Shown here in pieces: positions 26,759 to 30,152 of a stretch of 44,691 bases of DNA. Origin of the DNA: Agromyces seonyuensis (GTDB lineage: Bacteria > Actinomycetota > Actinomycetes > Actinomycetales > Microbacteriaceae); assembly GCF_009789225.1 (NCBI RefSeq), contig NZ_WSTA01000025.1:1-44691 (forward strand), written 5' to 3'. Made by a program: the position numbers and the translations under genes. The notes below the pieces were generated by a model. That model was not told the origin of the DNA, searched no databases, and was given only the letters and a program-made list of their open reading frames with translations. The first letter of the stretch is position 1, and every line of letters starts with the position of its first letter.

Positions 26759-27607
26759 GTGAACACCCCCCACGCCGTCGACGCCTCGACCGGTCCGGAT
26801 CCCGAGGGCCGCGCGCCCGAGGCATCCGAACCCGAGACCTCGACCGCGCCCGCCCTGCTCACCCCCCATGCCCAGCGGTCGCTCGACGCGCTCGACGCGC
26901 CGACCCTCGACGAGATGCGCCGCCTCCGCGACGAGACCGACCGATTCTTCGCGCGGTATCGCTACGGCATGGAAGAGGTGCTGACGAAGCTCGAGATCCT
27001 GCGCGACGAGTTCAGCCGCACCTTCGACTACAACCCCATCGAGCATCTCGGCAGCCGGCTCAAGTCGGTCGACTCCGTCGTCACCAAGCTCGAGCGCAAG
27101 GGCATCGAGGCGACGTTCGAATCGATCGCGACGGCCATCACCGACATCGCGGGCGTCCGCGTCACCTGCAGCTTCATCTCGGACGTCTACCGGGTGTTCG
27201 ACCTGCTCGTCAGCCAGCCCGACCTCACCGTCCGCAAGGTCAAGGACTACATCGCGGACCCGAAGCCGAACGGCTACCAGAGCCTGCACGTCATCGTCGA
27301 GGTGCCGGTATTCCTCTCGACGGGGCCGCACCAGGTGCCCGTCGAAGTCCAGATCCGCACGAGCGCCATGGACTTCTGGGCGAGCCTCGAGCACAAGATC
27401 TACTACAAGTACGACCGCCAGGTGCCGGCCGAGCTCCTCGACGGGCTCACCGAGGCAGCCCGCACCGCGTCCGAGCTCGACGAACGCATGGAGTCGCTGC
27501 ACCGGTCCGTGCACGGGATGCCCGCGCCGCTCGCGCTCGAGCCGCCGATCGGCGCCGCGCGGCGGCCCGGCGCCGTCGACCCGCGGACCGGTCCGATCGC
27601 GGTCTGA
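26759..27607 (+). CDS. Small alarmone synthetase (RelA/SpoT synthetase domain)
   Basis: The 282-aa product carries only the (p)ppGpp synthetase fold: LGSRLKSVDSVVTKLERKG (substrate-binding), DIAGVRVTCSF, PKPNGYQSLHVIVE and EVQIRTSAMDFWASLEHKIYYK. There is no HD hydrolase, TGS or ACT domain, so this is a stand-alone small alarmone synthetase of the YjbM/YwaC type. It would transfer pyrophosphate from ATP to GTP or GDP in the stringent response. About 45 disordered residues precede the fold, and the C-terminus is proline-rich. The GTG at 26759 appears leaderless. It converges on the LigD-type polymerase gene. Confidence 0.93.
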   Translation: MNTPHAVDASTGPDPEGRAPEASEPETSTAPALLTPHAQRSLDALDAPTLDEMRRLRDETDRFFARYRYGMEEVLTKLEILRDEFSRTFDYNPIEHLGSRLKSVDSVVTKLERKGIEATFESIATAITDIAGVRVTCSFISDVYRVFDLLVSQPDLTVRKVKDYIADPKPNGYQSLHVIVEVPVFLSTGPHQVPVEVQIRTSAMDFWASLEHKIYYKYDRQVPAELLDGLTEAARTASELDERMESLHRSVHGMPAPLALEPPIGAARRPGAVDPRTGPIAV

Positions 27608-27619
27608 GCCGGTCGGGTC

Positions 27620-28636
27620 TCACTCGGCCTTGCGGCGGCTCGGCTGCACCCGCGGCGGCTCGCCCGGCATCTTCGGGAAGTCCGGCGGGAACGGCAGTTC
27701 GCCGAGACCGGCGGACAGATCCGCCTCCCACGCCTCGAGCAGTGGCGCAAGCACGCCGGGGCGCGCCGCCGCGAATCCCTCCCACGCGTCGCCGCGCTCG
27801 CGCAGGCGCGCCGGCACCGTGCGCACGGAGAAGGCCGACGGGTCGAGCCCCTCGAGCTCGTCCCAGGCGACCGGGCAGGAGACCGGCGCTCCCGGCCGGG
27901 CCCGTGGGCTGTACGCGCCCGCCATCGTGCGGTCGCGGTTCGCCTGGTTGTAGTCGAGGAAGATCCGCTCGCCGCGCTCCTCCTTCCACCACGCCGTCGT
28001 GACCCGATCGGGCATCCGCGCTTCGAGCCGTCGGCAGAGGGCGATGACGCCGTGCCGGACGTCGAGGAACTCGTGCTCGGGCGCGAGCGGAGCGAAGACG
28101 TGCAGGCCGCGGCCGCCGCTCGTCTTCACGAACGGGTCGAACCCGAGCTCGACGAGCAGCGTCTGCAGCGCCCGGGCGACGTCGACCGCGTCGCCGAAGT
28201 CGGTGCCGGGCTGGGGATCGAGGTCGATGCGCAATTGGTCGGGGAGGTCGCTCGCCGCGGCCCGCGACGGCCACGGATGGAAGACCACCGTGTTCATCTG
28301 CACCGCCCACACGAGGGAGGCGGGCTCGTCGAGCACGAGCTGCGGATGCGACCGGCCGCTCGGGTAGGTCACCTCGCTCGCACGGACCCACTCCGGCGTG
28401 CCCTTGGGCGGGTTCTTCGAGAAGAAGGTCTCATCCTGGATGCTCCCTCGCACGCGTTCGAGCGAGACGGGACGGTCGCCGATCGCCCGCAGCATGGGTT
28501 CGGCGACCGCCTCGACGTAGTCGGCCAGTTCGCCCTTCGTGACCCCGGCATCCGGCCAGATCACCCGCTCGGGGTGGGTCAGCCGCACCTGTCGGGGCCC
28601 GTCGGGGCCGTCGAGTTCCCGCAGCTCGCCGTCCAT
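27620..28636 (-). CDS. LigD-type DNA polymerase/primase domain protein (stand-alone)
   Basis: The 338-aa product corresponds to the polymerase domain of bacterial LigD, an archaeo-eukaryotic primase-type fold used in non-homologous end joining and gap filling. The metal-binding aspartates are D138 and D140 (RIDLDP), with D228 in IFLDYNQANRDRT. SGGRGLHVFAPL carries the conserved His. These positions nearly match M. tuberculosis LigD. There is no ligase or phosphoesterase domain and no ku gene nearby, so it is a stand-alone PolD1/D2-like enzyme, possibly in repair. The ATG at 28636 is 9 nt from the upstream oxidoreductase gene, and TAGCCT precedes it. It may share an SOS promoter. Confidence 0.92.
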   Translation of the reverse strand: MDGELRELDGPDGPRQVRLTHPERVIWPDAGVTKGELADYVEAVAEPMLRAIGDRPVSLERVRGSIQDETFFSKNPPKGTPEWVRASEVTYPSGRSHPQLVLDEPASLVWAVQMNTVVFHPWPSRAAASDLPDQLRIDLDPQPGTDFGDAVDVARALQTLLVELGFDPFVKTSGGRGLHVFAPLAPEHEFLDVRHGVIALCRRLEARMPDRVTTAWWKEERGERIFLDYNQANRDRTMAGAYSPRARPGAPVSCPVAWDELEGLDPSAFSVRTVPARLRERGDAWEGFAAARPGVLAPLLEAWEADLSAGLGELPFPPDFPKMPGEPPRVQPSRRKAE

Positions 28637-28642
28637 GCCCGG

Positions 28643-28648
28643 AGGCTA
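28643..28648 (-). promoter_or_regulatory. -10 element TAGCCT before the LigD-type polymerase gene
   Basis: On the minus strand TAGCCT ends 6 nt before the ATG at 28636. It overlaps the TAG stop of the upstream oxidoreductase gene, so a chance match is possible. Confidence 0.4.
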
Positions 28649-29233
28649 CCCGACGTGGGCGCCCGCCGCGACGGCGGCGAGCGACGCGGGCGCCGGTTCA
28701 TCGACGGGCCGGAGGAGGAAGAGCCGCACGGCGCGGCCGGACTCCCGCTCATAGCCGCGGTAGCCGGGCCATTGCGCCTCGATGCGCCGCCAGGCGGCGT
28801 CGCGCTCGGCCTCCGGGATGCGAGACGCCCGGACCGTGAGCAGGCGCCCGCGGACGTCGATGACCGCGACGGGATGCGCGGCGAGATTGGCCGTCCACGC
28901 GGGATGGCGCTCGCGGGCGAAGCTCGTGCCGGCGACGATCGCGCGGCCCTGCCCGTCGGGCGTGTACATGAGGTGGGCGGAGCGGACGACGCCGCTGTGC
29001 GCACCGACCGTGTGCAGGACGAGCGACGGGACGAGGAGCCCGGCGATCTGGAGCCGGCCGCCGGAGAGCCGGCCGAGCAGCCGCTCGAACACCGGGAGAA
29101 GCCGGGGGGCGCCGGCACGGAAGAGGCGAGTTCGGGTGAGCGGCGCGACGACCGCGCGCACTGCTCGGACGACGACGGGAGTGCCGGTCGGATCCGGTGG
29201 CAGGATGCGCTCGGGCGCGTCGTCGTGGCTCAC
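28646..29233 (-). CDS. Deazaflavin-dependent nitroreductase-family protein (Ddn-like)
   Basis: The 195-aa product has a flavin-reductase-like split barrel with HTVGAHSGVVRSAHLMYTPDGQGRAIVAGTSFARERHPAWTANLAAHP. The glycine-rich strand, the SF...HPAWTANL segment and the NL-AHP turn are typical of F420-dependent Ddn-family proteins. These use the deazaflavin F420 to reduce nitro compounds, quinones or other electrophiles. Here the substrate is unknown. It lies between the DUF6504 and LigD-type genes with gaps of 18 and 9 bp. The GTG at 29233 follows TAGCCT by 7 nt. The F420 requirement is inferred from family. Confidence 0.85.
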   Translation of the reverse strand: MSHDDAPERILPPDPTGTPVVVRAVRAVVAPLTRTRLFRAGAPRLLPVFERLLGRLSGGRLQIAGLLVPSLVLHTVGAHSGVVRSAHLMYTPDGQGRAIVAGTSFARERHPAWTANLAAHPVAVIDVRGRLLTVRASRIPEAERDAAWRRIEAQWPGYRGYERESGRAVRLFLLRPVDEPAPASLAAVAAGAHVG

Positions 29234-29240
29234 GGGGGCG

Positions 29241-29246
29241 AGGCTA
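29241..29246 (-). promoter_or_regulatory. -10 element TAGCCT before the Ddn-like gene
   Basis: On the minus strand TAGCCT ends 7 nt before the GTG at 29233. It lies in the 18-bp gap after the DUF6504 gene. Confidence 0.45.
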
Positions 29247-29251
29247 GCGGA

Positions 29252-29521
29252 TCACCGGTACACCCGATCGATGCGCCACTCGCCGCCCTCGGTCGCCACG
29301 ACGTCGACCACGACGCTCTCGCCGTCGTCGACGGCCGTCGCCTGGAAGCGCCACCCGATGCGGGGCTCGGGCGCGTGCGTGAGCATGGGCGGCAACCACT
29401 CGGCCCGCTGGTGCAACGGCGTCGGCTGATCGCTGACCCGCCACCGCCGGCCGCCCCAGACGAGGCGCGCCGGACGGTCGTCGACGAGCCAGAGTGCGAC
29501 TTCCTCGCCGGTCGAGATCAT
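29252..29521 (-). CDS. DUF6504 family protein, SOS-box controlled
   Basis: The 89-aa product is a small, tryptophan-rich protein ([36 protein letters not shown]) matching DUF6504. I recall this family beside ImuB/DnaE2-type mutagenesis genes in actinobacteria, so a damage-response role is plausible, but no biochemical function is known to me. The ATG at 29521 has an AAGGAG site 6 nt away. A canonical LexA site lies 21 bp upstream. It appears to be the first gene of a three-gene run ending with the LigD-type polymerase. No imuB or dnaE2 gene is visible here. Confidence 0.75.
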
Positions 29522-29542
29522 CCGCCGCTCCTTCGATCCATT

Positions 29543-29556
29543 CGAACATACGTTCG
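29543..29556 (-). promoter_or_regulatory. LexA SOS box upstream of the DUF6504 gene
   Basis: CGAACATACGTTCG (plus-strand reading) matches the Gram-positive/actinobacterial LexA box CGAAC-N4-GTTCG perfectly and extends to a longer imperfect palindrome, TCGAACATACGTTCGA. It ends 21 bp before the ATG, where it can cover the promoter. The half-sites are seen directly. LexA control is inferred. Confidence 0.85.
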
Positions 29557-29948
29557 ACTGCTCCGAGGATACGTCACGGCTCCCCGCCGGCCAAGCGGCC
29601 GTGGACGTCGGCGTCGTTCCGGGCGTGTCACGATTCGGTGACGAACGCTCGTCCGCCTGCCACCGGGCGACCGATGTGTGGTTTTCTCAGGCTGGAGACC
29701 CGGCAGCACCGGGTCTTCGCAGCACCAGGCGAGCCGCACCACCCGAACCGGGCAGAACGATCCGCCGAGTCCGGGCGTCCCGCGTCCGGAGGCCGCCCGC
29801 GGCCGCCCGACCCCCGATCCACCGACCGCGGCGCTCGTCGATACCGGCACGAGCGACCGCACCCCCGACCTCGCGGTCGGAGCAGCGCCGACAGCGGCGC
29901 AGGAGCGCAACCGGCGTTCCGAGGAACAACGAAGGAAAGACACACCCA
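29557..29948 (+). other. Intergenic leader of the cold shock gene
   Basis: This 392-bp region lies between the SOS box and csp. It contains AGACCCGG/CCGGGTCT (about 29697-29716) and CCGACC/GGTCGG (about 29866-29882) hairpins and a GAAGGAAAG ribosome site before the ATG. It probably holds a long 5' untranslated region, as is usual for cold shock genes. I could not fix the promoter. Confidence 0.5.
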
Positions 29949-30152
29949 ATGGCCACTGGCACCGTCAAATGGTTCAACGCCGAAAAGGGCTTCGGCTTCA
30001 TCTCCCCCGACGACGGCAGCGACGACGTCTTCGCCCACTTCTCGGCGATCTCCGGCAACGGCTACCGCAACCTCGTCGAGGCCCAGAAGGTCGAGTACGA
30101 CGTCGAGCAGGGCCCCAAGGGCCTGCAGGCGGCGAACATCCGCGCCCTCTGA
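29949..30152 (+). CDS. cspA: Cold shock protein (CspA family)
   Basis: The 67-aa single cold-shock domain begins [20 protein letters not shown], with RNP1 KGFGFI and RNP2 DVFAHF (VFAHFSAI). These aromatic residues bind single-stranded RNA or DNA, so it acts as an RNA chaperone or antiterminator. Length and sequence are typical, and the acidic [27 protein letters not shown] tail is the actinobacterial form. The ATG at 29949 has GAAGGAAAG upstream and a long leader. A 13-bp stem terminator follows. Confidence 0.96.

Follow-up and report, generated by a model that had tools for sequence, protein, structure and literature searches.

The C-terminal domain of ImuB (ImuB-C) belongs to the translesion mutasome, where published predictions have it binding DnaE2 and ImuA (PMC6511836, PMC12926913), and is described as the least characterised of the mutasome's modules (PMC6511836). 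If the gene considered here, gene D, encodes such a domain on its own, it would bear on the way in which damage-induced mutagenesis engages DnaE2 and holds it back. In mycobacteria, the LexA consensus is of the TCGAAC-N4-GTTCGA type. Streptomyces LexA sites include sequences such as TCGAACATCCATTC (PMC9380542); neither DUF6504 nor imuA appears in the main text of that paper.

Gene D lies in the window (the whole stretch of 44,691 nucleotides of Agromyces seonyuensis DNA that was analysed), ahead of a ddn-type gene and a gene for a stand-alone LigD-type polymerase (Table 1); a preliminary description had proposed the three as one SOS-controlled unit. Comparison with relatives leads us to favour, with moderate confidence, a different reading as a whole: that LexA controls gene D, whose product would be a stand-alone, ImuB-C-like mutasome accessory acting in trans and moved together with its operator, and that the SOS unit would consist of operator, promoter and gene D alone.

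Table 1. Coordinates of the features discussed, in window numbering.
Feature	Coordinates	Strand	Basis
Putative -35, TTGGCC	29589..29594	-	Sequence only; position matches TTGGCG of several other genera
Putative -10, TATCCT	29566..29571	-	17-bp spacer, 8 bp before the box; sequence only
LexA operator (SOS box) TCGAACATACGTTCGA, perfect 16-bp palindrome	29542..29557	.	Exact sequence and conservation ahead of relatives
Gene D, 89-aa stand-alone protein, divergent DUF6504 / ImuB-C-like	29252..29521	-	Profile comparison, alignment, tree
TAGCCT, possible -10 of a leaderless ddn transcript	29241..29246	-	7 nt before GTG; sequence
ddn-type F420/deazaflavin-dependent oxidoreductase	28646..29233	-	PF04075 69.2 bits (cut-off 22), TIGR00026 72.8 (cut-off 46.35)
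TAGCCT, probable -10 of a leaderless ligD-polymerase transcript	28643..28648	-	6 nt before ATG; TANNNT conserved
Stand-alone LigD-type primase-polymerase	27620..28636	-	PF21686 305.7 bits (cut-off 27.4), TIGR02778 243 (cut-off 214.7)

Operator and putative promoter of gene D

The perfect LexA box first described 21 bp ahead of the gene is confirmed: the 14-mer CGAACATACGTTCG (29543-29556, 0 mismatches) lies at this distance from the ATG at 29521 and forms the core of the 16-bp palindrome TCGAACATACGTTCGA, whose distance is 20 bp. The box sits between the promoter-like pair TTGGCC-17-TATCCT and gene D. Perfect TCGAACN4GTTCGA sites occur twice in the 3.9-Mb genome, once ahead of gene D and once ahead of imuA', 9 bp before its called start. 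This is more than chance: the number expected per genome ranges from 0.06 with independent bases up to 0.49 with a first-order Markov model of the window composition. Sites with at most one mismatch number 59 for the forward and 6 for the reversed pattern, and by themselves are no evidence.

The box is kept with the gene. At the 38 family loci (the window, the 29 best relatives after it, and 8 picked by hand further down the list) it is always found with at most three mismatches (22 perfect, 12 with one, 3 with two, 1 with three), as compared with no perfect box and 0.24% one-mismatch boxes in 7224 random windows. It occurs with at most one mismatch at all 29 same-genus loci, a set of the top-ranking matches after the window rather than every place in the genus, two of which (G079 and G142) are counted in the family set as well; with at most two mismatches at all 32 named loci, 16 of which share DNA with loci already counted; and with at most one mismatch in seven of nine further regions. 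Two very divergent copies of D (L228, L230) show no box at this last threshold. Genes of the comparison loci were called with a simple script rather than an annotation pipeline. In a search of the phylum, D is found in only 5 of 396 genomes, and two of these five are weak matches (L089, L090) that proved to be DUF6504 proteins.

The genome also encodes LexA (PF01726, 79.1 bits at C134; cut-off 23.7), imuA', dnaE2, and an ImuB-type gene ahead of dnaE2. Because the box is conserved with the gene and these proteins are encoded in the same genome, damage control of gene D by LexA is supported as a prediction. A PafBC-type motif was considered as a further promoter feature and rejected, being present at 1 of 81 D promoters (79 different); it does occur 23-35 nt before the box in 7 of 14 DUF6504 loci and in the bridging locus L226.

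Kinship of the gene D protein

The D protein of the window matches neither PF20114 in Pfam, even at E 10, nor DUF6504 in NCBIfam at E 0.001, and a PF20114 search of the whole genome returns nothing; the name DUF6504, under which the gene had initially been described, is therefore withdrawn from the protein itself and kept for its family. At that level, 13 of 38 D proteins match PF20114 at E ≤ 1 (best 1.4e-4), and the profile-profile comparison of D with DUF6504 (14 rows, all matching PF20114 and including L089 and L090) gives 98.4% with E 4.8e-15, homologous over 91 columns. With 12 of the 14 rows, leaving out two that had been found by the D profile, the value is 97.8%; the best of 60 column-shuffled controls reach 2.2% and 2.5%. 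By profile comparison, the D family is a divergent DUF6504 branch. The two are nevertheless distinct: the WW motif is present in 14/14 DUF6504 proteins and 4/38 D proteins, D-x-P-T/I in 38/38 D and 0/14 DUF6504, and they lie on separate sides of a 99/94 branch. All 14 DUF6504 genes carry a LexA-like box with at most two mismatches near the start (7 perfect). A search of PDB sequences with the D profile yields three matches at chance level (best E 0.42). In a phage collection, two unannotated records match at 72% and 67%.

The D family also resembles ImuB-C, weakly. A joint profile of D and DUF6504 aligns to ImuB-C with 82.5% (score 34.4; best of 60 shuffles 21.3), the D profile alone with 55.3% (score 29.3; best of 60 shuffles 22.9), and the DUF6504 profile alone with 7.9%; removal of two of the 14 DUF6504 rows (L089 and L090) lowers the joint value to 55.9% (score 29.0), and the link is called weak because it hangs on few rows. 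None of 30 ImuB C-termini matches PF20114 at E ≤ 1. The conserved C-terminal Trp and the two or more conserved basic residues given for ImuB-C in PMC3765255 are found in D, with W82, R19 and R26 in at least 90% of the proteins and R58 invariant. Kinship of D with ImuB-C would be more distant, and is less sure, than that with DUF6504.

The same conserved Arg and Trp residues could also serve a DNA-binding damage sensor or an autoregulator of the D promoter, rather than a partner of DnaE2 or ImuA; Aravind and colleagues have proposed damage sensing via DNA for ImuB-C (PMC3765255). Consistent with self-control, the -10 is preceded by an 11-bp element, TTGGCGTGTCG, in the D promoters of several other genera, and all 10 exact matches of this element in 20 genomes, most of them picked for having it, lie at D. 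This element has no exact match in the window genome or in two other genomes of the genus that were searched, though a copy differing at one position is present in one of these two, G142 (L073), and ImuB-C has been modelled as a protein-binding barrel (PMC12926913); we regard a sensor or autoregulator as unlikely.

The genes downstream of gene D

The annotation of the downstream genes as Ddn-like and LigD-type is borne out by scores above all cut-offs (Table 1), and the layout stands as preliminarily described: the three genes lie on the same strand with gaps of 18 bp between D and ddn (29234-29251) and 9 bp between ddn and the ligD-polymerase gene (28637-28645), no terminator-like site is found in 27400-30000, and both internal TAGCCT elements are present. 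A cold-shock gene, named by eye, adjoins D.

With the LexA box ahead, this arrangement would suit a single LexA-controlled transcript, by which end-joining or primase-type synthesis and an F420 enzyme become damage-induced in this genome. The gene order, however, is seen only here: neither ddn nor the ligD-polymerase gene stands beside D in any of three overlapping sets of 29, 29 and 32 other loci, and in the 51 other genus genomes that list both D and ligD-polymerase, the two are on separate contigs or, where they share one, no less than about 60 kb from each other (coordinates read by eye). Further, the ligD-polymerase gene appears to have its own signal: 52 of 58 loci, the window among them, show TANNNT at its start codon, versus 77 of 8612 start-like triplets. 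Its orthologues show no box with at most one mismatch upstream in any of 29 genus loci. The -10-like element at the ddn start is seen only in the window, and is absent from the other 15 ddn loci. A shared damage-induced transcript in this genome seems decidedly unlikely to us, and a conserved three-gene SOS operon is rejected, since the order is unshared and the ligD-polymerase gene has no box at the genus loci and mostly a -10-like signal of its own. What survives of the proposed SOS unit is the box, its placement at the promoter and the predicted control of D; conservation extends to the box and not to the gene order, and the notion of a conserved LigD-polymerase operon under SOS control, attractive as it is, is unsupported. 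The ddn and ligD-polymerase genes are probably bystanders of D, outside the conserved SOS unit, with perhaps some read-through from the LexA promoter in the window genome.

Role of gene D and comparison with known systems

Most D genes examined stand away from any recognised polymerase gene, and in the window there is no translesion polymerase gene beside D. In one genome (G003, L226), a D-side protein is encoded immediately before a DnaE-type polymerase gene, and lexA is close by. Three more relatives (G055, G028, G103), placed by the tree outside the D-side core, lie a few kb from imuB/dnaE2-type genes. At no fewer than 5 of 14 DUF6504 loci, the DUF6504 gene immediately precedes one for a DnaE-type polymerase. 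Of the genomes with D, 38 of 42 also carry an ImuB C-terminus, whereas DUF6504 outside D is almost exclusive with it (both in 2 of 15 genomes). A functional co-occurrence of D with ImuB (Fisher p 1.3e-4 in 100 genomes, from presence lists and genome sizes compiled by hand from tables) is not used as evidence, because the association vanishes once the comparison is restricted to genomes no smaller than 2.9 Mb (p 0.46).

This setting bears on two further alternatives. SulA, YneA and DivS are small LexA-controlled inhibitors of cell division, the YneA/DivS type having a membrane segment. D is likewise small and usually stand-alone, and in 26 of 29 genus loci the upstream gene belongs to a single sepH-like (septation) cluster (the name sepH was tested only on the same-family L227); but this neighbourhood is not common to the wider family, D has no membrane-like stretch (maximal 19-residue mean hydropathy 0.70 for D, 1.32 for the family), and its homologue DUF6504 adjoins DnaE-type genes, so that a division inhibitor is very improbable. 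That D serves mobile elements as a plasmid SOS function and is only a chromosomal passenger might be suggested by its varying neighbours across the family and by plasmid-borne copies in Microbacterium hominis and in Gryllotalpicola protaetiae, where an operon that includes an SOS-response-associated peptidase gene diverges from it. This is similarly improbable: D is carried by 54 of the 60 genus genomes, and 26 of the 29 genus loci have it at one common site, which speaks for a gene resident in the host.

In the mutasome-accessory reading that we favour, LexA bound just downstream of the -10 would repress D, and DNA damage would relieve the repression. The protein would then most likely act in trans on the mutasome also encoded in the genome, binding DnaE2 (or ImuA') via the face used by ImuB-C, and would thereby help or limit error-prone synthesis. 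The gene would have left a polymerase operon and would move as an operator-plus-gene cassette; in the window genome it lies ahead of ddn and the ligD-polymerase gene, at least the latter with its own promoter-like signal. If D is a free ImuB-C, non-model soil bacteria offer this domain as a natural protein of roughly 90 residues under LexA control, testable apart from ImuB by simply removing the gene. Tentatively, D may even represent a class of orphan ImuB-C proteins, LexA-controlled and apart from polymerase genes in ImuA'-ImuB-DnaE2 genomes, mobile as a cassette of operator and gene, whose trans-acting subunit competes with or replaces the C-terminal domain of ImuB on DnaE2 and sets SOS mutagenicity; this extension is possible but doubtful. 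Were it true, the private second promoter element in several genera would point to control at a second level, or by D itself.

Among known systems, the box of D is of the same TCGAAC-N4-GTTCGA palindromic type as in the LexA/SOS regulon of Actinobacteria. To the C-terminal domain of actinobacterial ImuB (ImuB2), D aligns collinearly, and the RFQ motif is present in 32/38 D, 20/30 ImuB-C and 0/14 DUF6504 proteins; D is instead a separate protein with its own operator, and the similarity is weak and row-dependent. DnaE2B systems are described from genomes without ImuA/ImuB, whereas most genomes with D have an ImuB C-terminus. Another likeness is to the stand-alone ImuB-C proteins (Aravind 2013; Timinskas and Venclovas 2019; DnaE2-[ImuB-C] in PMC12926913; Deinococcus lexA-imuY-imuB-C-dnaE2): like D, they are free-standing, of about 80-90 aa and SOS-linked, and they have in common with it the C-terminal Trp and conserved Arg, D being a probable relative of ImuB-C; but the described genes lie in operons with polymerase or other repair genes, whereas D usually stands apart.

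The LexA box of gene D and its conservation

Gene D is preceded on the minus strand by TTGGCC, 17 bp, TATCCT, 8 bp, the LexA box, 20 bp and its ATG at 29521; because of this order of promoter, box and start codon, the box would span the likely transcription start. The box, a palindrome, is perfect, as the preliminary description had it, and is one of two perfect TCGAACN4GTTCGA sites in the genome (3,917,119 bases, 169 contigs; chance expectation 0.06 to 0.49), the second ending 9 bp ahead of the called imuA' start. Damage control of D is predicted from the box with high confidence.

Elements at D and related genes
Feature	Position or loci	Strand	Basis
LexA box palindrome TCGAACATACGTTCGA	29542-29557		pattern search of sequence
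Promoter-like TTGGCC ahead of D	29594-29589	minus	by sequence
Promoter-like TATCCT ahead of D	29571-29566	minus	by sequence
TTGGCGTGTCG before the LexA box of D	L046, L047, L052, L054-L057, L060, L072, L082 and others
P1/PafBC-like motif	L092, L095-L100, L226
Cold-shock-type gene	29949-30152		by eye
LexA-like box TCGAACATACCTTCGA, one mismatch	L085 (own genome, C127:6519-6534)

D was found by search in 63 of 150 Microbacteriaceae genomes. At 38 family loci (the window and 37 others, searched within about 130 bp upstream), the best box has no mismatch at 22, one at 12, two at three and three at one; by comparison, perfect boxes are absent from 7224 random windows, 0.24% of which have a one-mismatch box, and from 557 other gene starts, of which one has a one-mismatch box. 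Within Agromyces, 54/60 genomes have D, and a box with no more than one mismatch is present at every one of the 29 loci read, perfect in 11 (genomes G079 and G142 count in both sets). A further set from Agromyces, Leifsonia, Cryobacterium and Glaciibacter has a box with at most two mismatches at 32/32 D loci, 16 of which overlap earlier ones (15 Agromyces loci with the genus set, and Leifsonia flava, the same place as L081). At locus L265 the D match is partial and the box 154 bp off. Among nine further D regions, seven show a box that is perfect or has one mismatch; no such box was found at L228 and L230, very divergent copies. On the mobilizable plasmid NZ_CP032625.1 (L233), D and an operon that includes an SOS-response-associated peptidase gene are divergently oriented, and the stretch between them holds a LexA-like box with one mismatch.

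In several other genera, an 11-bp element lies ahead of the D -10; TTGGCGTGTCG with up to two mismatches occurs in 23/81 promoters (79 different) and 1.2% of random windows, its TTGGCG usually 17-18 bp from TANNNT. Among 20 genomes searched, most picked because they have it, 10 hold one exact match each, all at D, and the exact element with a -10 occurs only there. The window's D promoter has TTGGCC only, the rest of the element being absent.

Gene D and its neighbours

Comparison does not support a conserved SOS set of D, ddn and the stand-alone ligD-polymerase gene: D stands without either partner at 29 family and 29 genus loci (1.5-kb flanks) and at 32 loci of Agromyces, Leifsonia, Cryobacterium and Glaciibacter (4 kb), three samples that share some places. 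In the other 51 genus genomes listing both D and a close ligD-polymerase, the two lie, judged by eye, on separate contigs or, where they share a contig, at least about 60 kb apart. The ddn gene recurs within 1.5 kb upstream of ligD-polymerase at 15/29 genus loci, and none of these 15 has a box upstream of the polymerase gene; SOS control of the pair as a conserved design is unlikely.

A TANNNT ends 5-8 nt ahead of an in-frame ligD-polymerase start codon at 52/58 loci, window included (background 77/8612 start-like triplets of the same DNA), a rule somewhat biased in its favour by its freedom to pick among several in-frame starts. TANNNT close before a start codon matches the arrangement of a leaderless promoter in actinobacteria. 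Since the signal recurs, the earlier remark that internal TAGCCT elements could be extra promoters was right for the polymerase, whose own TAGCCT, as a putative promoter, counts against its expression depending on the LexA promoter. At ddn starts such a TANNNT occurs in 1/16 loci, the window itself.

Family-wide, D neighbours vary almost everywhere. In Agromyces, one upstream cluster, sepH-like, recurs at 26/29 D loci, with a convergent clpX downstream in most (both named by eye, sepH being tested, with NF040712, only at the same-family locus L227). G079, sharing part of the window's gene order, has a membrane-protein gene (by eye) at D's position. In an unrooted tree built on few columns, with many forks open, a 99/96 branch separates the window's D, which falls in the D-side core, from the fixed-place type of Agromyces (L076) and from L081, a relative of that type; the window's D was therefore probably acquired or moved separately. 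The cold-shock-type gene, on the opposite strand, starts slightly less than 400 bp past the box, and sequences judged csp-type by eye are also present close to D at L225 and L229.

Comparison of D with DUF6504 and ImuB-C

The window's D protein has no match in Pfam or NCBIfam, and 13 of the 38 D family members match DUF6504 (best E 1.4e-4). The D profile matches that of 14 DUF6504 proteins, all of which match PF20114, at 98.4% (E 4.8e-15, over 91 columns), or 97.8% without two DUF6504 rows found by a D profile; the best of 60 column-shuffled controls reaches 2.2% and 2.5%, respectively. The D-DUF6504 link is firm, and D is likely a DUF6504-type protein. A LexA-like box with at most two mismatches lies near the start of all 14 DUF6504 genes, perfect in seven, and at 5/14 loci or more the next gene encodes a DnaE-type polymerase, flank or simple gene calling being too limited to show the arrangement at the others.

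When compared with the last 110 residues of 30 ImuB proteins, the joint D and DUF6504 profile scores 34.4 (82.5%, E 1e-5; best of 60 shuffles 21.3), collinear with ImuB to the C-terminus, and 29.0 (55.9%) without the two rows; D alone scores 29.3 (55.3%; best of 60 shuffles 22.9) and DUF6504 alone reaches 7.9%. The RFQ motif occurs in 32/38 D, 20/30 ImuB-C and 0/14 DUF6504 proteins, the WW motif in 4/38, 30/30 and 14/14. That D is an ImuB-C-type protein is probable, not proven.

The mycobacterial LexA-independent P1/PafBC motif reads tTGTCRgtg-8 nt-TannnT (quoted in PMC5656591). A similar motif lies 23-35 nt before the LexA box at 7/14 DUF6504 loci and the bridging locus L226 (genome G003), which suggests that DUF6504-type promoters may be under double damage control.

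Mutasome genes and comparison with known systems

The genome encodes LexA, an imuA' (NF058630, 169.9 bits, cut-off 65) and DnaE2 (NF004225, 1448 bits, cut-off 939); dnaE2 directly follows an ImuB-type gene, truncated by the contig end and named from this position and weak Y-family matches. About 260 bp ahead of the segment coding for the LexA DNA-binding domain (L277, C134) there is a two-mismatch box, TCGAAGATACGTTCGG, possibly the autoregulatory site. At L085 the box coincides with the beginning of a short open frame containing MGQNRRYG; vaguely similar small genes occur beside D at L231 and divergent to it on a Microbacterium hominis plasmid (L234; TNRRY near the start).

In genome G003, a one-mismatch box accompanies the gene of a D-side protein, and the next gene encodes a DnaE-type polymerase (NF004225 557.6 bits, below the cut-off of 939; TIGR00594 472.6, above that of 434.35); lexA is nearby (TIGR00498, 193.7 bits). 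In G055, G028 and G103 (the last by eye), a few kb separate imuB/dnaE2-type genes from D-side genes that have perfect boxes. In the tree, a 99/94 branch puts all DUF6504 rows on one side, the G003 protein is the first to join on the D side, and those of G055, G028 and G103 fall outside the 99/96 D core. From these placements and the tree, it is proposed that the D subunit may have originated beside dnaE2 and later become independent. A role for D on the mutasome is a tentative candidate, a reasoned guess.

Literature searches found no publication for DUF6504 or for LexA with Microbacteriaceae and 'SOS box', nor 'ImuB-C' in the main text of PMC10421592; no account of an orphan D was found in the library searched, which does not prove that there is none. 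Published work describes ImuB-C, named by Aravind and colleagues, as found alone and in repair operons, with DNA binding proposed (PMC3765255); as the main candidate, proposed by Timinskas and Venclovas, for DnaE2 binding (PMC6511836); and as a modelled barrel contacting the DnaE2 PHP domain and ImuA, with DnaE2-[ImuB-C] systems occurring in genomes without ImuA/ImuB (PMC12926913). Deinococcus has a lexA-imuY-imuB-C-dnaE2 arrangement (PMC8072749). Among 100 genomes, a canonical ImuB C-terminus accompanies D in 38/42 and DUF6504 outside D in 2/15. Genome size confounds the D figure, the association vanishing at 2.9 Mb and above (p 0.46); the separation of DUF6504 from ImuB-C persists in this size class (p 5e-4).
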